A DNA stretch of 64,000 nt from Clostridia bacterium (lineage in GTDB: Bacteria > Bacillota > Clostridia > Oscillospirales > Acutalibacteraceae), in contig JAFXAK010000017.1 in assembly GCA_017517135.1 (NCBI GenBank), positions 1 through 64,000 on the forward strand, written 5' to 3'. Positions 7,321 to 24,065 of this stretch are shown in pieces (positions within the stretch are counted from its first letter, which is position 1; each line of letters begins with the position of its first letter). A model generated the notes under the pieces. The model worked only from the letters and a program-made list of their open reading frames with translations. It was not told where the DNA came from and searched no databases. The position numbers and the translations under genes were made by a program.

Positions 7321-7632
7321 TTATTTGTCGGGGAATGAATCAATTATTTTTGATATTATTTCTTTATTCTCTTCCGATTTTCTGTTGAGTTTCTCTGCAA
7401 TTTCACTGTCAACAGAATACACACTTCCGTCAATAAGATAAGATGGATTGACATTAAGCGCAGAACATATATCAAGAAATATCGAGAAGCTGGGTGCCGC
7501 TTTGCCGTTTTCAATATTTGACAGATGATTGTTTGAAATATTGATTTTTGCTGCAAGCTCTTTTTGTCTTATTCCAAGTTCTCTTCTTCGTCTGTATACT
7601 CTTTTCCCGAAAGACTTAAGTTTGTATGCCAT
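7321..7632 (-). CDS. XRE-family regulator, last gene of the agr operon
   Basis: A 103-residue protein with an N-terminal XRE helix-turn-helix (residues ~8-62; core RQKELAAKINISNNHLSNIE) and a 40-residue acidic/basic helical tail (SEIAEKLNRKSEENKEIISK). Its first codons overlap the end of the kinase gene by 17 nt, and AAAGGAAAGAG lies before the ATG, so it is translationally linked to agrC and ends at the operon terminator. A helix-turn-helix regulator as third member of an Agr two-component operon is not part of the classical staphylococcal arrangement. It may add a second output or damp the circuit; that is inference. Confidence 0.85.
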   Translation of the reverse strand: MAYKLKSFGKRVYRRRRELGIRQKELAAKINISNNHLSNIENGKAAPSFSIFLDICSALNVNPSYLIDGSVYSVDSEIAEKLNRKSEENKEIISKIIDSFPDK

Positions 7633-8941
7633 TGTTGCTCTTTCCTTTTCTATGCTGTATTGGAATTGCTATATCTGTTTCAAAAATCTTACTTTCGCTG
7701 TTATATTTCCAATCATATAAGGCATCATATTTTTTTATTATTTTTTTCACTATATTAAGCCCCAATCCGTGATATACCTTATTTGCTTTTGATGTTATAA
7801 GTTTATTCCCGATAGTTTCAGGCGGAGTTGTACAAGTATTTCGTATAATTACTCCGTCATATCTGCTGTTTTTTGAAAACACATACAATTCAATTTCTGA
7901 ATTTTCTGATTTTTCTGCCGCATCAACAGAATTATCAAGTAAATTGTTTAGCAATGTAGATAAATCCACATCATTGATGTAACTTAAATTTGCAAGTTTA
8001 ACCGAAGGAGTAAATTTTATTCCTTTTTTATCGCAAATTGATATGTATTTGCTGACAATGAGATTCAGCATTTTATTATCACTTATTCCGACATATGATA
8101 TATTTTCAACATCTGAAATTAACCTGTCAAGATATTTATGTGTTTCTTCAATGTCGTCAATATACCTAACCTGCAGTAAATGATTCTTTATGTCATGAGA
8201 AAAATGCCTGATTTCATCATTTGTCTGTTCAATTACTTCAAAATACTTTTTATCAAGCTCTTGTTGAAAAGTAATAGCCTTGAGATCATACAGTTCATCA
8301 AGATTTTTTTGAGCTCGCTCGTAAATGATGAAAACTATAATATTGGCAAATAAAAGTAATATTGAAACTACTGATATAAAAATGCTCACTAAATCAGATA
8401 TATCATTATCACTGGCAATATAACTAAACAAAAAAATAGTAATAACACTTGTCAACGGAAACAAAAATAGTATCCAAAAAAAGCGATCATTCTTTTCGTT
8501 AGTCTTTTTGTTAGCAAAAAAGCGTTTAATGGCTAACATAACAGCAAAATATAATAATTTACTGGATACAACAACAAATACATAAGCATTAATATTTGAA
8601 TGCATTGCATTAAAATCGTCAAAAAGAAAAGTACAAAAACTTATTGCCGGCAATTCCGTTGCAGACATAATTCCCATAAATATAATTGAATGAAATATGG
8701 CATTTTTTAATTTAGCATCAAATATTTTACTAAAAATCAGCGTATACATTGAAAGCATTGCAATAAAATTTAAATTGCTTATTTCAATCTGATACACAAA
8801 AAACAAAATGGTAATTACAAAAATGACTGAGAGAATTCTTATTTTTCGCGGTTTACTGCTATAAAAAAGATTATTTGCGTAATTATACAACAACAACGCT
8901 TCAAAACAATACATTAAAAAATCAATACATATTTTATACAT
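7616..8941 (-). CDS. agrC: AgrC-like sensor histidine kinase
   Basis: A polytopic N-terminal half (about six membrane helices, residues ~10-215) precedes a cytoplasmic kinase of the HPK10/AgrC class. The phospho-acceptor is in RHFSHDIKNH, the N-box in LLNNLLDNSVDAAE and the G-box in GLGLNIVKKI. Known role of the family: binding of a cyclic autoinducing peptide to the membrane domain and phosphotransfer to a LytTR regulator. The frame opens at a TTG at 8959, but the ATG at 8941 has GAGGG 8-9 nt upstream inside the end of agrA and is the better start. It overlaps agrA and the downstream xre, so all three are coupled. Confidence 0.9.
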   Translation of the reverse strand: MYKICIDFLMYCFEALLLYNYANNLFYSSKPRKIRILSVIFVITILFFVYQIEISNLNFIAMLSMYTLIFSKIFDAKLKNAIFHSIIFMGIMSATELPAISFCTFLFDDFNAMHSNINAYVFVVVSSKLLYFAVMLAIKRFFANKKTNEKNDRFFWILFLFPLTSVITIFLFSYIASDNDISDLVSIFISVVSILLLFANIIVFIIYERAQKNLDELYDLKAITFQQELDKKYFEVIEQTNDEIRHFSHDIKNHLLQVRYIDDIEETHKYLDRLISDVENISYVGISDNKMLNLIVSKYISICDKKGIKFTPSVKLANLSYINDVDLSTLLNNLLDNSVDAAEKSENSEIELYVFSKNSRYDGVIIRNTCTTPPETIGNKLITSKANKVYHGLGLNIVKKIIKKYDALYDWKYNSESKIFETDIAIPIQHRKGKSNNGIQT

Positions 8942-9650
8942 TTGTCTGTCCCTCGCCAATAAATTCCAAAAATCTTCTCTTGAATTCAGGTTGCTTTCTG
9001 TTTGAAATCTGAATATTTATTTCTCCTTTCGGACTTTCAAGTATAATTTCTTCTCTCTTGAAATTAGAAATATAATTCATATTTACAATAAAACTGTTAT
9101 GAGGGACAGCAAATATTGAAGCTGTAAGCATTTCTTTAATTTTTTTAAGACTTTCTCTTACAGTATATGTTTTTTTGTTTGTACACACCGTAACCGCTTT
9201 GAGGTTTGCTTCAACATAAATTATGTCACGGCTTCTCACTCTTATTATCCGATTATCCTTAGTTGAAAACATAATAAGATTTTCTTTCATTTCCTGCAAT
9301 GCTTTTTCAAGTGCAGAATAAACCCTTTTCTGCTCGACAGGCTTTTTAAGAAACCGTATCACATGAAGATCCATTGCGGCATCAAGATAATCTGTATAAG
9401 AGGTCACTACAATTATAATACAATTATTATTTTTCTCTTTCAGTTTTTCCGCAATCTGAATTCCGCTCATATCCCCCAATTCAATGTCCAAAAAAACTAT
9501 ATCGAATTTTTCTTCACAGTTAAGAATATCAGCACCTGATGAAAAATCTTCAATTTCTATCTGAATTTCTTTACTGCGAAAAAATTCAAATACATAAGGT
9601 CTTAAAGTATCTCTGTGAGATAACACATCATCACATATTGCTATTTTCAT
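8934..9650 (-). CDS. agrA: AgrA-like LytTR response regulator
   Basis: A 238-residue protein with a receiver domain (residues 1-120; acidic pair D7/D8, phosphorylation site D55 in FLDIELGD, conserved Lys in FLKKPVE) and a C-terminal LytTR DNA-binding domain (residues ~140-235; IIYVEANLK, HNSFIVNMNYI). LytTR regulators of this class activate agr promoters by binding paired 9-bp direct repeats. It is the first gene leftward from the shared intergenic region and diverges from agrD-agrB. The ATG is preceded by a weak GAGGTGG-like sequence. Confidence 0.9.
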   Translation of the reverse strand: MKIAICDDVLSHRDTLRPYVFEFFRSKEIQIEIEDFSSGADILNCEEKFDIVFLDIELGDMSGIQIAEKLKEKNNNCIIIVVTSYTDYLDAAMDLHVIRFLKKPVEQKRVYSALEKALQEMKENLIMFSTKDNRIIRVRSRDIIYVEANLKAVTVCTNKKTYTVRESLKKIKEMLTASIFAVPHNSFIVNMNYISNFKREEIILESPKGEINIQISNRKQPEFKRRFLEFIGEGQTNV

Positions 9651-9818
9651 TTAACCACCTCATTAAAATTCTTTTATTTTATATACAGCAAAATATTTTC
9701 GCTGAAAAATTACATTTCTTCTGATATTATTGTTTTCTCTGCATTTATCACACTTAATTGTAAAAAAGCACAAAATTATTTAAATTTAAAACAAATCTAT
9801 GAAAGGAGAAAATGCTTT
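9651..9818. promoter_or_regulatory. Divergent agr control region
   Basis: The 168-bp AT-rich gap holds promoters for both arms of the agr locus. One sequence, CTTAATTGT at 9753-9761, differs by one base from the reverse of the AgrA half-site ACAGTTAAG; I found no clear second half-site at the usual spacing, so an AgrA site is only suggested. Confidence 0.45.
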
Positions 9819-9968
9819 ATGCAAAATAATGCAAAAAAAATAATGGACAAGCTTTCTGTTAATATATTGAAAGCAAACTTGAACGGAATTACAAGTTTAT
9901 TAGCATATCAGCCTGAAGTTCCCGAAAAAGCGCTGCAGTATTTGAACAAAAAGAAAAATGATAAGTAA
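9819..9968 (+). CDS. agrD: AgrD-like autoinducer precursor without cysteine (probable serine lactone)
   Basis: A 49-codon gene directly before agrB. It has the three AgrD parts: a basic amphipathic N-terminus (MQNNAKKIMDKLSVNILKAN), a short core (GITSLLAY) and a C-terminal recognition tail (QPEVPEKALQ) carrying the conserved P-E-x-P-E pattern. There is no cysteine. Ser26 lies five residues before the expected cut after Tyr30, so Ser-Leu-Leu-Ala-Tyr could close as a five-residue lactone, as in the serine-lactone peptides GBAP of Enterococcus and the S. intermedius AIP. AAAGGAG lies about 10 nt before the ATG, and the gene overlaps agrB by 11 nt. The ring assignment is inference. Confidence 0.85.
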   Translation: MQNNAKKIMDKLSVNILKANLNGITSLLAYQPEVPEKALQYLNKKKNDK

Positions 9969-10566
9969 ATTTTCTTGTTATTTAACAGATTGGCTTATGA
10001 AAAATTCTGAAAATGCAGAAGACCTACAATACCGGGAAGTGTATCAGTATGTATTATTTTTAATACTCAATTATCTACTTTTCTTTGGGTATTCATTAAT
10101 ACTCGGAACACTTCTCGGTGTTCCCTTTCAAAGCTTGGTGTTTTTTGTATGTATTGCTATTCTTCGCCGATATGCCGGAGGCTACCACGCAAATACAGAA
10201 AAACGCTGTCTTATAATTTCATCCGTATATTTTTTGACCGGGATAATATTAATTAAAATAATGAATCTCTATGCCGATAGCATAAATTTCAATATCATTT
10301 TGAGTATTTCTGTTATATGTTCATTAATTATTTTATTTCTATGTCCCTGTGATTCTCCGTCAAAACCTGTAGCAAAAGAAAAAAGAAAAGGTATCAGAAT
10401 TAAATGTATAACAATAATAGTGATGATATTTACAGCAATGCTGTCACTTTTAAGATTTAACAAACCACAATTCATGAGTTTATTCTTTTCTGCCTTTATC
10501 ATTGAAACTGTGCTGATAATTGCAGGAAAAATAAAAACGAAAACTACTTGTCACATTGAACAATAA
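9958..10566 (+). CDS. agrB: AgrB-like membrane protease for autoinducer maturation
   Basis: A 202-residue polytopic membrane protein. The segment RRYAGGYHANTEKRC is the AgrB active-site signature, with the catalytic pair at His77 and Cys84, the same residue numbers as in S. aureus AgrB. AgrB enzymes remove the C-terminal tail of AgrD and join the new end to the ring residue. The overlap with the precursor gene makes agrD the likely substrate. Nothing in the sequence shows whether this enzyme prefers a Ser nucleophile. A terminator overlaps the stop codon. Confidence 0.93.
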   Translation: MISKFSCYLTDWLMKNSENAEDLQYREVYQYVLFLILNYLLFFGYSLILGTLLGVPFQSLVFFVCIAILRRYAGGYHANTEKRCLIISSVYFLTGIILIKIMNLYADSINFNIILSISVICSLIILFLCPCDSPSKPVAKEKRKGIRIKCITIIVMIFTAMLSLLRFNKPQFMSLFFSAFIIETVLIIAGKIKTKTTCHIEQ

Positions 10567-11440: not shown

Positions 11441-14400
11441 TTGAAAGAAAAAGACATTGAGATTATCCCTATTAATAATCAAGAGATTCTTGAACAAGTT
11501 ATGAAAAATGAAACAATTGCGTGGCAATACTTCAATTGCTGTTCGCTTTCTCAAAATTGGTTCATCAAACAACTTGAATCCAGTTTGGCATCGTTGGGTC
11601 CAAGATATAATGAAGAGTTTAATGTTGTTACTCAATCTGAAAGACTTTTAAACCACTTTCTTTGTAATTCAGAAGCTGCAAATGAGATTAATAACGCAAA
11701 AGATAATGTAATCCAAAAACTAAAGAAAGAGCATTACAAATATAGCGAGTGCAAGGATACGCTTGAAACTATTTTAAAAGCGATATACAACATAGAGGAT
11801 GTAACAAAAAGCTCCATATCTGATAGCCTAGCTTGGTCTGATATAATTAAAAGTAATTGTTTTGAAGAATTTGAATTCATTCAAAACTTAATTGAAAAGA
11901 AAGAAAAAGATAAAGAAAAGACTTATGAAGAAAACAAACTAGATGAGTTTTATGAATTATCAAGAAATATTCAAAATCTAACTTATTTATATGATGTTCC
12001 TTCTTTGATTTCTCCTGATGTTCACAAACAGTCATTAATTAAAAATCAAGTGTTAATAGTTAAAGGTGATGCAGGAGTAGGTAAATCACAAATGTTTGCT
12101 GTGGCTACGGAAAAGATAGTTGCAGAAAATCGTGGAGCTGTTTTGTTGCTTGGAGGTAATTTTTTTAGCAACTATTCTATAAACAAACAGATTATAGATG
12201 TATTGTCATTAAATATTTCACTTGACGCACTGTTTCATAAATTAGAAGCTCAAGGTCTTGAAAAGAATACATATTCCTATATTTTCTTTGATGCTATAAA
12301 TGAAAGCACATATAAAGATATTTGGAAAATCGGACTATTTGATTTAATTGCAAATTTGAGAAAATATCCGCATATTAAAATGGCTATATCTGTGAGAAGC
12401 GGGTATGAACCATTAGTATTAAGTGATGCTATAAATAAAGCTATTTCTAATGGCGAGATATCAAATATAGTTCATACTGGTTTTCGAGAAGAATCTATAT
12501 TCGCCACATCCACATTTCTCAATTATTATGGTATACCGTTTTCGCCTGCTTATTTTTTGCAGTCCGAAATGACGAACCCTCTTTTTCTTAAACTGTTTTG
12601 TAAAACTTACGATGGTGAGAATTATGATTTGTTTTCCCTGTTTGATAATTTGATTGAAAAAGCTGACGAAGAAGTTCAGAAAGCTATAGGTATGCAAGGC
12701 AGTGTACCTGTATTGCAATACCTTGTTGATGAAATAGCAAGTATTCGTCTTATGAACAAATCGTTCGCTATATCTCAATCCAATTTGTTTGAACTTAAGT
12801 TTTGGGGAAAATATGGATTAAGTTCACAAAAACTGCCATTTGTTGCTTCATTGATAAAATCGGGATTGTTAATAGAAAATGCGTATGATGGTGTAGAATC
12901 ATATAATTTGGCTTATAATTTATTAGACGATTTTGTTTGTGCAAAATCAATTATAAATCGTTTTTGCAAAGAATCAGATATGGTTAATTATCTTCAACAT
13001 GAACTTCTTGAAATTGAAAGTGGAAAAATAACAAATTACAGCAATATCGATATATTTATTATTGTGTGCGGATTGTTTGCCGATAAATATCAAAAAGAAT
13101 GTTTTATTAGTATTAATGAACTTGTTACTGATGATTATGACAATAGCTATATTTGTAGAAGATACATCGAGTCTTTTTTGTGGAGAAAAGCAAGTTCAGT
13201 TAATGCTACATACTTTTTAGAGTTTATCAAAAGCCATTTAATTGATCATAAAACTGTTTTTCGCATGTTGATAGAAAACAGTTCAAAAGAAAATCATCCT
13301 TTAAATTCACTCTTTTTGCATGATATTTTAATCAATAGAACTATATCTAACCGTGATGCTTTATGGACTACATATATAAATGGATTGTATAATGAAGATG
13401 AACGGCTATATCAGCTTATAAATTATTTTGATGAAGGAAAAGAATTGGACGGATTATCAACCTTTAACACTGAGCTTATTCTTGTTTTATTTGCTTGGCT
13501 ATTAACATCGTCTAATCGATTTTTACGAGATAAAGCATCAAAAGCTATGATAGAGCTGTTGAAAAGGAATTTCTCTCTTTGTGAAAAAATATTGAAACGC
13601 TTTGAAACAGTTAGCGATCCGTATGTGTTACAAAGATTATACGGAATTGTTTTCGGTGCATGCGTGAAGCGAATAGAAAACCAAAAAGAAACTTATCGTT
13701 CGTTAGTAAAATATATTTATTGCGAAATCTTTGATAAAGAATATGTTTATCCGGATGTATTGCTTCGCGATTATGCACGTTTAATTATAGAACGATGGAA
13801 ATGTGAGTATCCTGCCGAATGTGATTTTTTGGATCATTCAAAAGTATCTCCTCCGTATAAATCTGAAAAAATTCCTATTGTTGAAAAACAAGAATACTAT
13901 GATGATACACGCAAAAACATGGGATTTAATAGTATAGTTTCTTCTATGATGATTGATCATTCAGAGGTAGAAAGTATGTACGGAGATTTTGAAAGATATG
14001 TATTCCAAGCTGCATTGGGACATTTCAAAGATGTTGATGTTGTCAACTTATACCATTATGCTATGAAGCACATCAGGGATGAATTAAATTATAATGATGC
14101 TTTGGATAACTATGATAGTTCTTATGTACATTCTGGCTATTATCGCCACGACACTAAAAAAAAAGAACGCATCGGTAAAAAGTATGAGTGGATTACTTTA
14201 TATAATATTTTAGCAAGGGTAGCAGATACTCACGAGTTGAAAAATTGGAATGAACCTTCGTATCCTTTTGAAGGACCTTGGGAGCCATATGTTCGAGATT
14301 TTGATCCAACACTTAATACACACTTTTTAAATTATGAGAATACCCCATCTATTAATATGCCTGTAATTCAGTCAGAGATGTTGTCAATCGAACCGTATCC

Positions 14401-15313
14401 ATCAATGTGTGATATTCAAAAATGGACACATAAGAATACTTCTTTTTTTGAATCGATACCATCACAGTTGTCATTAAAAGATGCTGATGGTAAAAATTGG
14501 ATAGCTTTATATTTATATAAAAATCTTAAAAATGCAGAGAGTTTTGAGAAGATAAATTCGATAGGGTTCTCTAAAGGTTCACAAGAAATATGGCACATAA
14601 CCCAGGCAAGTTTTATAAGCATTCCCAATCTTTCAATTCTAAAAGAGCACCAAGAAGCATATTTGAATTCTGATTTTCCGAAAGGCGAAGATGTTTATCA
14701 ATTGTTTAATAGAGAGTATGCTTGGTCCCCTGGATACAATAGCTTTTTCAGAGAATTATGGATTGATCATGAATTTGCAAGCAAAAATTGTCATGTTGTA
14801 AAAGAAGCATATGAAATTCCTGATTATGAGAATATTGAATATGATGGAGAGGGAGTTGTTAAAATTCCATATGCAACAAAAGAATTCGAAAAACGCATTC
14901 TTGAAAACACAATACATATAGACATTATGCCTTCGTATTCAAGGTTGGTTTGGGAAGAGCAATATGATGCATCTCAGGATGAAGTAACATCTTTTTTTGT
15001 ACCATGCAAAAAAATTATTGAGCATCTTAATTTAGAGCAAAAACTGTCAGATGGATATTATTTCACCAAAGACGGTGAACTTGTTTGTTTTGACGGAAAT
15101 CTTAATGAAATATGTGATGGGTTGCTTATCAGGGAAGATTATCTGAAAATGTTTTTGAAAGACAATGATTTAGAAATATTCTGTACAAGTATCGGAGAGA
15201 AACAATTCTTCACAAGTGATATGAGCCAAGAGTGGAGTACATGGAAAGGTTTATATTTTTTAGAAAACAAAAATATTGTGGGCGATATTAAACAGTACAA
15301 AGAAAAAGAATAA
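11441..15313 (+). CDS. Avs-like STAND NTPase, candidate antiphage sensor
   Basis: Up to 1290 residues. Residues ~50-62 (SLGPRYNEEFNVV) match the segment that follows the effector domain in Avs-type proteins. A P-loop NTPase follows: Walker A GDAGVGKS at 209-216, Walker B IFFDAINES at 281-289 (the STAND-type D-A-x-N-E form), AISVRSGYE at 315-323, HTGF at 345-348 and MTNPLFLKLFC at 377-387. The C-terminal ~850 residues are mostly helical and fit a repeat-based sensor region. Known Avs proteins recognise phage terminase or portal and then fire an N-terminal effector. No nuclease, protease or TIR/SIR2 domain fits in the ~45 residues before the LGPRY segment. The start is uncertain: TTG 11441 or ATG 11501, neither with a good ribosome binding site. 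Confidence 0.8.
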   Translation: MKEKDIEIIPINNQEILEQVMKNETIAWQYFNCCSLSQNWFIKQLESSLASLGPRYNEEFNVVTQSERLLNHFLCNSEAANEINNAKDNVIQKLKKEHYKYSECKDTLETILKAIYNIEDVTKSSISDSLAWSDIIKSNCFEEFEFIQNLIEKKEKDKEKTYEENKLDEFYELSRNIQNLTYLYDVPSLISPDVHKQSLIKNQVLIVKGDAGVGKSQMFAVATEKIVAENRGAVLLLGGNFFSNYSINKQIIDVLSLNISLDALFHKLEAQGLEKNTYSYIFFDAINESTYKDIWKIGLFDLIANLRKYPHIKMAISVRSGYEPLVLSDAINKAISNGEISNIVHTGFREESIFATSTFLNYYGIPFSPAYFLQSEMTNPLFLKLFCKTYDGENYDLFSLFDNLIEKADEEVQKAIGMQGSVPVLQYLVDEIASIRLMNKSFAISQSNLFELKFWGKYGLSSQKLPFVASLIKSGLLIENAYDGVESYNLAYNLLDDFVCAKSIINRFCKESDMVNYLQHELLEIESGKITNYSNIDIFIIVCGLFADKYQKECFISINELVTDDYDNSYICRRYIESFLWRKASSVNATYFLEFIKSHLIDHKTVFRMLIENSSKENHPLNSLFLHDILINRTISNRDALWTTYINGLYNEDERLYQLINYFDEGKELDGLSTFNTELILVLFAWLLTSSNRFLRDKASKAMIELLKRNFSLCEKILKRFETVSDPYVLQRLYGIVFGACVKRIENQKETYRSLVKYIYCEIFDKEYVYPDVLLRDYARLIIERWKCEYPAECDFLDHSKVSPPYKSEKIPIVEKQEYYDDTRKNMGFNSIVSSMMIDHSEVESMYGDFERYVFQAALGHFKDVDVVNLYHYAMKHIRDELNYNDALDNYDSSYVHSGYYRHDTKKKERIGKKYEWITLYNILARVADTHELKNWNEPSYPFEGPWEPYVRDFDPTLNTHFLNYENTPSINMPVIQSEMLSIEPYPSMCDIQKWTHKNTSFFESIPSQLSLKDADGKNWIALYLYKNLKNAESFEKINSIGFSKGSQEIWHITQASFISIPNLSILKEHQEAYLNSDFPKGEDVYQLFNREYAWSPGYNSFFRELWIDHEFASKNCHVVKEAYEIPDYENIEYDGEGVVKIPYATKEFEKRILENTIHIDIMPSYSRLVWEEQYDASQDEVTSFFVPCKKIIEHLNLEQKLSDGYYFTKDGELVCFDGNLNEICDGLLIREDYLKMFLKDNDLEIFCTSIGEKQFFTSDMSQEWSTWKGLYFLENKNIVGDIKQYKEKE

Positions 15314-17850: not shown

Positions 17851-17946
17851 AGGAGAAGAAATATTGTATTCATCTGAAAATAATGCTAAAATTTATGTAA
17901 GATGAAGTATATAAAATCGGTTTATATAAGTGAGAGGAGGTTTTTT

Positions 17947-18513
17947 ATGGAAGATAAACAAATAATAAAGCTTTTATTTGCAAGAGCCGAAACGGCAATC
18001 GGGGCTTTGACGGTGCGATTCGGCAGTACCTTATACAAAATCGCAATGAATATTCTCGCAAATCACAACGATGCAGAAGAAACAACAAATGATACATATC
18101 TTGCCATTTGGAATGCTATACCACCTAAAGAACCTGACCCTTTGGCTCCTTATGTATATCGCACAGGAAGAAATATGGCGTTGAAACGCTTGGAGTATCT
18201 TTCAGCCGAAAAACGAAACAGCAGTTATGATTTATCGTTGGATGAGCTTGGTGCTTGTCTACCGGATGAAGATAATAACCCTGAGCAGGCTTTACTTATT
18301 CAGGAAATTGCAGATTCAATAAATGAGTTTTTGAAAAAAGACAGTGCTTTGAACAGATATATTTTTATTCGCAGGTATTGGTACGGAGATACTGTAGAAG
18401 ATATATCCCAAGAAGTCAAAATGAAAAGCGGTGCCGTATCGGTACGATTAACCCGTATCAGAACAAAATTAAAAGAGTATCTTATTAAGGAGGGTTACTA
18501 CTATGAAGCGTAA
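17947..18513 (+). CDS. ECF-type RNA polymerase sigma factor
   Basis: A 188-residue group IV sigma factor. Region 2 spans residues ~10-80 (MNILANHNDAEETTNDTYLAIWNAIP, then the YVYRTGRNMALKRL helix) and region 4 spans ~125-185, with its helix-turn-helix at VEDISQEVKMKSGAVSVRLTR. The ATG at 17947 follows GAGAGGAGG at about 7 nt; earlier in-frame codons have no such site. It overlaps the downstream anti-sigma/serpin gene by 11 nt, so the pair is translationally coupled. An extended -10 (TGCTAAAAT near 17884) lies upstream. By family logic it is held inactive by its partner and released by an envelope signal. Confidence 0.92.
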   Translation: MEDKQIIKLLFARAETAIGALTVRFGSTLYKIAMNILANHNDAEETTNDTYLAIWNAIPPKEPDPLAPYVYRTGRNMALKRLEYLSAEKRNSSYDLSLDELGACLPDEDNNPEQALLIQEIADSINEFLKKDSALNRYIFIRRYWYGDTVEDISQEVKMKSGAVSVRLTRIRTKLKEYLIKEGYYYEA

Positions 18514-19933
18514 GCAAGTATTGGAAATTATGGATAAGATAGACGGCAGATATATAGAAGAAGCCCAAAAAGCTCCGAAGAAAATGAAAAAAATACCATA
18601 TTGGATAGGTGCAGTTGCTGCTGTTTTAGCAGTTATAATTTGTATCAGCTCTTTCTTCAATACACCTGTAATTACAGCAGATGCCATTGCTCTTCCCGAG
18701 GCTGCACGCGTTATGGAGCATCCCGACCTTGATGATTATAACGATAGAGAAAGCTATATGGCAGATGTCGGAATATGGGAGGCAGAGTTAAATAACAGAC
18801 GAACAACAAGAGAAAATGCAGCTATTTCCCTGTCACCGTTTTTCACCAAAAGCTCTGCTGAATTCCTCACTTCACAGAACAATGAAAATGCCTTGTGGTC
18901 ACCTATAAATGCATATATCGGACTTTCTATGCTTGCAGAATTAACAGACTCTGACAGTCGCAAGGAAATTTTAGATTTATTCGGTGTCATGGATATTGAA
19001 ACACTCAGAAGTCAGGTCAGTGCAGTCTGGGAATCCGTTTATGAGGATGACAGAAATGAAATATCAACATTGGCTAATTCTCTTTGGCTTGAAGACGGAC
19101 TTAATTTTAATCAGGAGGCTATGGATAATCTTGCATATCATTATTATGCATCTGTATATCAATGTGACCTTGGCAATAAAAGTGCCGATAAAGCTATAGG
19201 CGAATGGCTTAATAAAAATACAGGCGGACTATTAAAGAACAATACCGATAACATCAATTTATCCCCCGATACCGTTCTTGCTCTCTATTCAACACTCTTT
19301 TTCCAAGCTAAATGGAGCGATGAATTTGACAGCAAAGATAATACTGACGGTATTTTTCACGGTGCTGACGGTAATTCAAATGTCACTTATATGAATAAAA
19401 AGCTCTGTCAGATGTATTATTATTGGCACGATGATTTCAGTGCGGTAGGCTTAACGCTCAAAAACGGCAGCACAATGTGGTTCATTCTTCCCGATGAAGG
19501 TAAAACTCCTGCCGATATATTAAACATCGGTGCTTACGGAGAAATGATTGCTACGGGAAGCAAGGAAGACGGCTGGCAAAACAAAAAGTATATGAAGGTC
19601 AATCTGTCTGTGCCTAAGTTTGATGTTTCTTCTACATTAAACTTAAAAGAGGGACTCAGCAGAATGGGCGTAACAAAGGTCTTTGATACGGAAAGCTCTG
19701 ATTTTACGGCAATCACTTCAGATACTCCCGTGTATATTTCAGCCGTTAATCAGTCCGCAAGAGTTGAAATTGATGAAAAAGGTGTAAAGGCGGCAACTTA
19801 TATAGAACTCCCCGGTGCAGGTGCAGCACAGCCTCCTGAAGAAATAATAGATTTTGTGCTTGACAGACCATTTGTATTTGTAATTTCTAAAGGCAATTTA
19901 CCTCTGTTTACGGGTGTGGTAAATAATCTTTAA
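18503..19933 (+). CDS. Membrane-anchored anti-sigma-like protein fused to an extracellular serpin
   Basis: 476 residues. The N-terminus (KQVLEIMDKIDGRYIEEA) and a single membrane helix (~33-51) match the short cytoplasmic-plus-TM part of Firmicute ECF partner proteins. Outside the membrane, from ~residue 100 on, lies a serpin fold: NALWSPINAYIGLSMLAEL, TLANSLWLEDGL, ALYSTLFFQAKW, a VPKFDVSSTLNL segment, and the C-terminal shutter/RCL region NQSARVEIDEKGVKAATYIE ending in DRPFVFVI. The reactive loop reads EKGVKAATYIELPGAGAAQ; counting from the hinge Gly427 puts P1 near Ala441, which would suit elastase-like proteases, as in serpins of Eubacterium siraeum. The serpin could sense protease attack and relay it to the sigma factor; that link is inference. 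Confidence 0.9.
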   Translation: MKRKQVLEIMDKIDGRYIEEAQKAPKKMKKIPYWIGAVAAVLAVIICISSFFNTPVITADAIALPEAARVMEHPDLDDYNDRESYMADVGIWEAELNNRRTTRENAAISLSPFFTKSSAEFLTSQNNENALWSPINAYIGLSMLAELTDSDSRKEILDLFGVMDIETLRSQVSAVWESVYEDDRNEISTLANSLWLEDGLNFNQEAMDNLAYHYYASVYQCDLGNKSADKAIGEWLNKNTGGLLKNNTDNINLSPDTVLALYSTLFFQAKWSDEFDSKDNTDGIFHGADGNSNVTYMNKKLCQMYYYWHDDFSAVGLTLKNGSTMWFILPDEGKTPADILNIGAYGEMIATGSKEDGWQNKKYMKVNLSVPKFDVSSTLNLKEGLSRMGVTKVFDTESSDFTAITSDTPVYISAVNQSARVEIDEKGVKAATYIELPGAGAAQPPEEIIDFVLDRPFVFVISKGNLPLFTGVVNNL

Positions 19934-19965: not shown

Positions 19966-20000
19966 GCCATCGGTTTAAGGCCGATGGCTTTGTGCTTTAC
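19966..20000 (+). terminator. Terminator after the serpin gene
   Basis: GCCATCGG/CCGATGGC stem (19966-19973 with 19981-19988) followed by TTTGTGCTTT. Confidence 0.75.
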
Positions 20001-20078: not shown

Positions 20079-20106
20079 TTGACATTTTCATAAAATCACA
20101 TATAAT
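20079..20106 (+). promoter_or_regulatory. Sigma-A promoter
   Basis: TTGACA (20079-20084), 16-bp spacer, TATAAT (20101-20106), 43 bp before the DUF-type membrane gene. Confidence 0.8.
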
Positions 20107-22954: not shown

Positions 22955-23431
22955 GTGACTGAGTTTGAAAAGCTTTTCAATGAAAACCGAGATTTTATTT
23001 TTAAGTACTTAATGAAATTATCCCGCAACGCTTCCCTTGCCGAGGAGCTGACACAGGAAACCTTTTTCCGCGCGTATATAAACTATCCGTCCCTGCGAAA
23101 TAAAGAAAAGACATCGGTATGGCTGTGTCAGATTGCGAAAAATACATACTTTGCGTATTTCAACGAGCAGAAAAAGTATACATCTGTTGAAGACAGCGTG
23201 GTAACCGCCACCGAACAGAATCCCGAAGAAAGCTTTGTACAAAAAGAGCTTTCCGAAAAAGCCTTAAAATGCTTACACGAATTGGAAGAGCCATATAAGG
23301 AAGTTTTTATGCTCTCTGTGTTCGGCGGTTTTTCACTAAAGGATATAAGCATTACATTCGGAAAAAGTGAGAGCTGGGCAAGAGTCACCTTTTACCGTGC
23401 CAGACAAAAGCTATCAGAAAAAATGAGGTAA
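22955..23431 (+). CDS. ECF sigma factor (SigV/SigM type)
   Basis: 158 residues. Region 2 (residues 5-70) has the ECF signature ASLAEELTQETFFRAYINY and a WLCQIAKNTYFAYF helix; region 4 (105-155) has LSVFGGFSLKDISITFGKSE and a recognition helix SWARVTFYRARQKL. GTG start 8 nt after GGGCGGTG. It is followed after 4 nt by a zinc-type anti-sigma gene, the usual operon for this class. Targets are likely envelope-stress genes, including its own promoter. Confidence 0.92.
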   Translation: MTEFEKLFNENRDFIFKYLMKLSRNASLAEELTQETFFRAYINYPSLRNKEKTSVWLCQIAKNTYFAYFNEQKKYTSVEDSVVTATEQNPEESFVQKELSEKALKCLHELEEPYKEVFMLSVFGGFSLKDISITFGKSESWARVTFYRARQKLSEKMR

Positions 23432-23435
23432 TAAT

Positions 23436-24065
23436 ATGAATTGCGAAGTTATTAAAGATTTAATCCCCTTGTATATTGACGGCTGCTGCAGTAAAGAAAG
23501 CCGTAAAATTGTTGAAGAGCATATCGGAAGCTGCAAAAAATGCCAACAGCATTTTGATGATATGAGCACTGCCCCCGATATTATCCCCGTTTGCGAGGCA
23601 CCGCAAAAGCTTAACAAAATAAATGATTGGAAAGCTTCTGTTTTGCAGTCGGTTTTATTGTTCATATCCTTTGCATTAATAACTGTCGGTGTGGCAATTG
23701 AAGCTAACACCCCTTTGGGACTCACAAACGGACTGTGTGCATTAAACCTCGTCGTTCCCGTAACGGGTTTTATGCTGTCGCTTACAAACTGGTATTTTAT
23801 AAGAATATATAAAAGCAGAAAAGTGTTTTCAAACTGCTCTCTTTTTATCACACTCGGTATCACACTTTGCGCCTATATATGGTCATTTGCTCACTATGAA
23901 TTAAATCTTTCCGACTTGTTTTCAGAAATTGATTTTATCGGCTTTTTGGATGTTATGCAAGGTATTCTTTTCTTTTACGGAATCGGTTTTTTGTTGACTT
24001 TGGTATTTTGCGTTTTGTCAAAAATACTCTCTGCACAATACGCAAAAATGCTTGGGAAAGACTGA
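23436..24065 (+). CDS. Zinc-finger anti-sigma factor, membrane bound
   Basis: 209 residues. The N-terminal ~40 residues carry the ZAS motif His29-x3-Cys33-x2-Cys36 (EEHIGSCKKC) with an upstream Cys3; this domain binds the sigma factor in related systems. Four to five membrane helices follow (from ~residue 66 to 200), more than the single helix of classical RsiW-type proteins, so the signal may come from within the membrane. Its gene starts 4 nt after the sigma gene and is followed within 9 nt by the interrupted third gene of the operon. Confidence 0.88.
   Translation: MNCEVIKDLIPLYIDGCCSKESRKIVEEHIGSCKKCQQHFDDMSTAPDIIPVCEAPQKLNKINDWKASVLQSVLLFISFALITVGVAIEANTPLGLTNGLCALNLVVPVTGFMLSLTNWYFIRIYKSRKVFSNCSLFITLGITLCAYIWSFAHYELNLSDLFSEIDFIGFLDVMQGILFFYGIGFLLTLVFCVLSKILSAQYAKMLGKD

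Follow-up and report, generated by a model that had tools for sequence, protein, structure and literature searches.

The window, the name used here for the whole 64,000-nucleotide stretch of DNA analysed, contains an ECF sigma factor gene that overlaps the gene for a putative membrane protein with a serpin ectodomain. The features of this gene pair and its boundaries are listed below.

17896..17924, + strand: putative ECF-type promoter (TGTAAGAT ... TCGGTTTA) just 5' of the sigma gene, with its function predicted
17947..18513, + strand: ECF sigma factor gene, 188 amino acids from the likely start (the ORF is listed from 17902)
18503..19933, + strand: anti-sigma-like membrane protein with a serpin ectodomain, 476 amino acids
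18503..18595, + strand: N-module covering residues 1-31, with a pair of short helices and a basic stretch; the putative sigma-binding part
18596..18658, + strand: transmembrane helix, residues 32-52, by prediction and structure model
18677..18685, + strand: A-D-A at residues 59-61, a putative site 1 for signal peptidase past the transmembrane helix, by analogy with RsiV
18815..19930, + strand: serpin domain, residues about 105-476, by profile and predicted fold
19775..19837, + strand: residues 425-445, the hinge plus the reactive loop (EKGVKAATYIELPGAGA|AQPP), with predicted P1 Ala441
19966..19988, + strand: hairpin past the stop codon, a possible end of the bicistronic unit, seen by eye and unflagged by the terminator scan
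20079-20106: sigma-70-type promoter of the next gene, 12/12, from the promoter scan

The coordinates (18503..19933 against 17947..18513) confirm the overlap of the two genes that had been read from the sequence alone. No conserved third gene or partner protease was seen near the pair among the ORF clusters present in at least six loci. Seven such clusters were judged by eye. Two are the serpin and sigma genes, four are their shadow frames, and one is an ABC transporter that turns up in 10 loci without a fixed position.

Elsewhere in the window, an AgrB-like protein (PF04647) adjoins a GHKL-domain protein at 7616-10566, possibly forming an agr-type quorum system. A 1290-amino-acid STAND-type ATPase (11441-15313, +) matches PADLOC Avs2 models at 3.6e-196; its two best Avs2 matches start at profile positions 132-136, and the effector part at its N-terminus may be short or missing. 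A second ECF sigma gene with a zf-HC2 zinc-type anti-sigma gene (23436-24065) lies at 22955-24065 (+), about 3 kb downstream of the serpin gene.

The serpin domain matches PF00079 at 226 bits (cut-off 27) over positions 14-369 of the 370-position profile. The predicted structure is a serpin fold, and among the structures that match it best are loop-inserted serpins, both cleaved and latent. Both results bear out the serpin ectodomain proposed in the sequence-only reading; a fold other than a serpin, which that reading had allowed for, was not what the prediction gave. The RsiV-type lysozyme-binding ectodomain family is absent from the Pfam matches of the protein, whose ectodomain is the serpin.

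By prediction only, the protein has a single transmembrane helix and a short basic cytoplasmic N-terminus, the topology being taken from the basic residues preceding the helix. The N-module is modelled with helices at residues 4-11 and 16-21 (low confidence). The zf-HC2 motif gives no match at E 0.1 in this protein, which by this motif is not a zinc-type anti-sigma factor. DUF4179 matches residues 29-61 below threshold (14.4 bits, cut-off 30.1) and reaches E 0.1 or better in 5 of 54 relatives, with a best E of 0.0054. This model is a weak test, because even the control genomes, B. subtilis included, gave nothing above the cut-off in the genome search.

Two serpins are encoded in the genome to which the window belongs (2.27 Mb in 42 contigs). 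An N-module profile of 85 distinct serpin N-termini was searched against the ORFs of its 18 sigma loci. The profile matched the window protein and two non-serpin neighbours of ECF sigma genes, L147 (233 amino acids, 5e-17) and L138 (382 amino acids, 1e-16). The next matches were L142 (8e-7) and L135 (4e-6), and all of these E-values apply to the small search set. Outside this genome, the N-module is also present in ECF-linked proteins at L043 and L158. At L075, a divergent second sigma gene lies beside the fused serpin and is followed by a module-like protein with a different ectodomain. Because of the matches in non-serpin ECF neighbours, the serpin N-terminus belongs, as judged by the profile, to a group of interchangeable modules that sit directly behind ECF sigma genes. 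The non-serpin proteins with the same N-module at L138 (1992-3140) and L147 (reverse strand) both lie behind ECF sigma genes, and the outer domain of L138 has no convincing match in Pfam.

The first 34 residues co-vary with the sigma factor. This comparison used 71 of 87 loci, with near-duplicates dropped and L032, L037, L089, and L091 excluded beforehand. Sigma distance correlates with the N-terminus at 0.64 (0.53 given the serpin) and with the serpin at 0.50 (0.30 given the N-terminus). The value of 0.64 was reached in 0 of 999 permutations, with shared history only partly removed. The anti-sigma-like N-terminus claimed earlier is borne out as a likeness, in that its module is common to non-serpin ECF neighbours and co-varies with sigma.

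A serpin is present in 53 of 99 genomes (the window's own and 98 relatives). Of the 76 serpin places listed for these genomes, 73 were fetched, and the fragments G062:C81, G019:C234, and G011:C242 were left out. The fetched regions cover a serpin in 23 of the 27 genomes of the genus and contain 72 serpin ORFs. Of these, 32 carry the N-module and adjoin a sigma gene. Within the genus, 19 of 27 genomes have at least one of these 32 linked fusions; among 72 others from its family and order, 5 do, and in two of these five the N-type is different (L032, L037). Two more ORFs have the module with no sigma gene in the distance set, one of which (L091) overlaps a sigma gene by 11 nucleotides. In two (L034, L046), a sigma gene is less than 900 bp away with a transmembrane protein gene between; two (L038, L043) follow the order sigma, separate module protein, serpin; and four have a sigma gene further upstream. 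No sigma gene was found upstream of the remaining 30, five of which are at a contig start.

For the named relatives, 84,980 species genomes were scanned and the best 80 of 264 relatives were kept. These 80 are mostly metagenome-assembled genomes (MAGs) labelled Oscillospiraceae, Lachnospiraceae, or Clostridia, and many come from ruminant, rabbit, and chicken gut. Flavonifractor sp. AGMB03687 (L199), a record without a MAG label, carries the same fusion junction. The best 80 of 264 contain 84 serpin ORFs: 72 fused with an adjacent sigma gene, three fused without one, one in a sigma/module/serpin series, and eight without sigma. Because the query was itself a fused protein, this set is biased towards fused forms. 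The genus and named counts are not to be summed because certain records occur in both, as with L149 and L058. A class-wide sample consisted of 40 regions chosen among the matches listed, mostly long ORFs and not a random draw. In these 40 chosen regions the N-module is present in 0 of 44 serpin ORFs; 41 of the 44 are unlinked, and three have a sigma gene nearby (operons at L257 and L262, plus L260).

Direct linkage of the serpin gene with an ECF sigma gene thus recurs across relatives, in line with what the sequence-only reading had described for the window. That reading had suggested looking for the same fusion beside sigma genes elsewhere, and it is found in 32 of the 72 ORFs; occurrence mostly without a sigma neighbour, the opposite outcome, did not hold for this serpin type. 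The linkage counts rule out the serpin as a chance neighbour of the sigma gene. The sigma/serpin gene unit is real and widespread among this group of gut Clostridia.

The promoter-like block 5' of the sigma gene, which reads TGTAAGAT-13-TCGGTTTATATAAGTGAGAGGAGG in the window, is conserved there and among eight close relatives. Of these nine rows, eight keep TGTAAGAT, the exception being L154. Similar blocks exist in some more distant groups, for example at L084 (TGTAACCTTT ... CGTCTA), which we take to resemble the AAC / CGTC type of ECF promoters. Other distant groups, for example L168-L175, have no clear block, and some sigma starts are misplaced in that comparison. The window has a single copy of the promoter pattern, with 0 expected. 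A looser pattern has one site in the 2.27 Mb genome and the reversed-pattern control likewise has one; since the count equals that of the control, no regulon beyond the operon is claimed. The single genomic site fits autoregulation of the operon alone. The promoter scan flagged no sigma-70-type promoter for the sigma gene.

The A59-D60-A61 sequence lies seven to nine residues past the transmembrane helix. Of 92 fused rows, some of which are one locus fetched twice, 66 have the motif [AV]xA no more than 20 residues past the helix. It is common by chance, being present in 63 of 87 distinct fused proteins and in 42 when the same stretch is shuffled. The longer motif A-x-A-[VIL], at up to 27 residues past the helix, is present in 50 of the 87 and in 5.9 (largest 15) over 500 shuffles, which ignore kinship among the proteins. 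The early [AV]xA is missing in 26 of 92 fused rows, many having long linkers, and site 1 may therefore differ between clades. Peptidases of the M50 and S26 families are encoded in the window's own genome.

The nearest known system is RsiV/sigma-V of B. subtilis (PMC5014341, PMC6066255; also the subject of PMC4183432). It resembles the window pair in having an ECF sigma factor and a membrane anti-sigma factor whose ectodomain binds and inhibits an attacker, which is the role proposed for the window protein. RsiV binds the active site of lysozyme and inhibits it (PMC5014341), and the same sources describe cutting by signal peptidase only when lysozyme is bound (PMC5014341, PMC6066255). The juxtamembrane DUF4179 region of RsiV contains the signal-peptidase site, which is shielded until lysozyme binding (PMC6066255); the window protein has a candidate site only. 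RsiV is a lysozyme binder, whereas the window ectodomain is a serpin, proposed to be aimed at proteases and to undergo an irreversible, cleavage-driven change. The receptor-inhibitor anti-sigma factor is known from RsiV, and what appears new is a serpin replacing the lysozyme binder in the same anatomy, with a putative alarm mechanism.

RsgI of the RsgI/SigI pairs of Clostridium thermocellum is likewise a modular membrane anti-sigma factor with an exchangeable outer sensor, although its sensors are carbohydrate-binding modules. SigI is not classed as an ECF factor. The serpins of C. thermocellum are described as separate cellulosomal proteins, unlike the window fusion. Siropins, the Bifidobacterium serpin, miropin, and tengpin are used in secreted or soluble form. 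In the sections of their descriptions consulted (Group T; PMC8233489, PMC5127057), they share the serpin fold with the window protein and have an inhibitory-type hinge, which the window protein fits in part; several come from gut bacteria, and no sigma-linked membrane form appears. The serpin of Bifidobacterium breve is protease-inducible and autoregulated under a two-component system (PMC8012564). That system is separate from the serpin, whereas in the window a single protein appears to serve as sensor, sigma brake, and inhibitor. In the searched papers that combine serpin, sigma factor, and anti-sigma factor (including PMC3990059, PMC10059941, and PMC12484212, and with subscription journals mostly outside the scope), no serpin-sigma unit was found.

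The favoured reading is an autoregulated ECF sigma/anti-sigma pair that is triggered by a protease, with an inhibitory serpin as the outer domain of the anti-sigma factor, and it is given a probability of about 0.5. Here we infer sigma binding, inhibition, the trigger, autoregulation, and the order of proteolysis. The cytoplasmic N-module would hold the sigma factor, and the serpin outside the cell would act as bait. An elastase-like serine protease favouring small residues would cut the loop at about Ala441-Ala442, and the cut serpin would snap into its loop-inserted form and trap the protease. The shape change, the attached protease, or both would make the juxtamembrane A-x-A accessible to signal peptidase (site 1), after which a site-2 protease would cut within the membrane. 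The freed sigma factor would transcribe its own operon, giving more serpin. The fuller version, a one-shot protease alarm in which one irreversible cleavage both captures the protease and frees the ECF sigma factor to renew the supply of inhibitor, with the fusion having arisen more than once in gut Clostridia, is more tentative and falls a little short of even odds.

The reactive loop bears on which protease would be the trigger. The earlier placement of P1 near Ala441 agrees with the present prediction of Ala441 in EKGVKAATYIELPGAGA|AQPP. In alignment A3 (54 proteins), P2 is Gly in 52, P1 is Ala in 31 or Ser in 19 (50 of 54), and P3' is Pro in 53. The wider count covers 195 ORFs, of which 24 were unanchored and dropped (two main-type, 22 other). 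P1 is Ala in 48, Ser in 25, and Gly in 18 of the 99 readable main-type loops (of 101), and is more mixed in the other serpins (72 of 94 readable), a more diverse set that is not strictly comparable. The P1 residues suggest a target protease with a preference for small residues, and the conserved small-residue loop argues for a shared target, elastase-like or possibly bacterial, and against a rapid arms race with the host. The same mechanism could be triggered by a protease of bacterial origin, made by the cell itself or by a neighbour (for example, subtilisin-like), in place of a host enzyme. The loop conservation counts for this because an arms race would favour change, and the C. thermocellum serpin PinA is described as inhibiting subtilisin-like proteases. 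However, a small P1 suits elastases too; human neutrophil elastase and proteinase 3 are among the enzymes that siropins inhibit (PMC8233489), and the best 80 of 264 named relatives are mainly from animal guts. A bacterial trigger is held to be rather doubtful.

The history of the fusion bears on whether the serpin senses at all. A quick tree was made from 130 of 200 serpin ORFs, with only 20 picked named loci and with fragments and some truncated or odd rows left out. The main fused type forms one 57-row clade (SH-aLRT 100) with nine non-fused rows inside. Three serpins fused to other N-types (L032, L037, L260) fall in another clade (98) outside it. A single clade for these three and the main type was rejected (p-AU 0.0025) in a 47-row subset with seven long branches removed and a simpler model, the groups and subset having been chosen after seeing the tree. 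A one-clade test of all fused rows (p-AU 1e-41) was not used because the nested non-fused rows alone force rejection. From the separate clades and the p-AU of 0.0025, serpins were probably joined to sigma-linked transmembrane N-termini at least twice. At L260 (1934-4003), the different fusion has its other transmembrane N-terminus behind a sigma-region-4-like ORF; by eye, that ORF starts with an XRE-like helix-turn-helix and ends like sigma region 4.

Serpins also occur as separate genes in sigma operons. The second serpin of the window's own genome, at L040 (G000:C18, 819-4875), is lipoprotein-like and is the fourth gene of a different ECF sigma operon, after the ECF sigma gene, a 200-amino-acid transmembrane protein, and a 544-amino-acid protein. 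Similar sigma/transmembrane protein/serpin operons are L034, L046, L257, and L262, and a second serpin stands in tandem behind the fused one at L214, L225, and L227. The serpin of the window might likewise be output only, a tethered or released protector, while the pair uses the N-module and transmembrane helix to sense another cue, such as stress at the membrane or envelope. The plain operon cargo (with L038 and L043) and the tandem copies favour this explanation. Against it, fusing cargo to an anti-sigma-like protein is unnecessary, yet it seemingly arose more than once, and the RsiV and RsgI ectodomains of the same architecture are described as sensors. Output alone is considered unlikely.

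The hinge bears on inhibition itself. The consensus of inhibitory serpins has Glu at P17, Gly at P15, Thr or Ser at P14, and small residues at P12-P9. The window loop fits at P17, P15, and P12-P10, whereas its Val at P14 and its Tyr at P9 deviate. All 54 proteins of alignment A3 have Glu at P17, Gly at P15, and Ala at P12, and 51 have Ala at P11; P14 is Val in 45 or Cys in nine, and P9 is Tyr in 43 or Phe in 11. These first four positions are quoted from A3 because the anchor of the wider count fixes P15 and limits P17, P12, and P11. In the 99 wider main-type loops, P14 is Val in 76, Cys in 19, and Ile in four, and P9 is Tyr or Phe in 94, while P14 is Thr in 45 of the 72 other serpins. With P14 not Thr or Ser and an aromatic P9, inhibition is not guaranteed, and the serpin could instead be a non-inhibitory, ligand-gated or substrate-type conformational sensor. 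This is quite unlikely, since P17, P15, P12, and P11 vary little or not at all among the 54 proteins and small non-polar residues are generally tolerated at P14. The hinge suggests a working loop-insertion machine.

Five relatives within the main clade (L164, L167, L191, L192, L197) are secreted or lipoprotein-like and free of the module. Four are lipoprotein-like (L164, L167, L191, L192; lipobox by eye) and do not keep the aligned A-x-A, although L191 has A-E-A nearby; L197 has an apparently ordinary signal peptide and keeps it. These five could mean that the N-terminus is a mere membrane anchor and the sigma linkage operon hitch-hiking with no contact. Their fetched loci, however, have no sigma-profile match, so module and sigma go together, and the N-module is common to non-serpin ECF neighbours and co-varies with sigma, making a mere anchor very unlikely. 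A chimeric MAG contig or other assembly or annotation artefact is dismissed with near certainty: the best 80 of 264 named relatives are mostly MAGs, but the identical junction occurs in dozens of assemblies and in the isolate Flavonifractor sp. AGMB03687.

If the protease-triggered reading is true, it would extend the RsiV idea, in which the receptor is also the inhibitor, from lysozyme to proteases. An encounter with a protease could both block that protease and switch on genes, and gut Clostridia would gain a means of sensing host or rival proteases.
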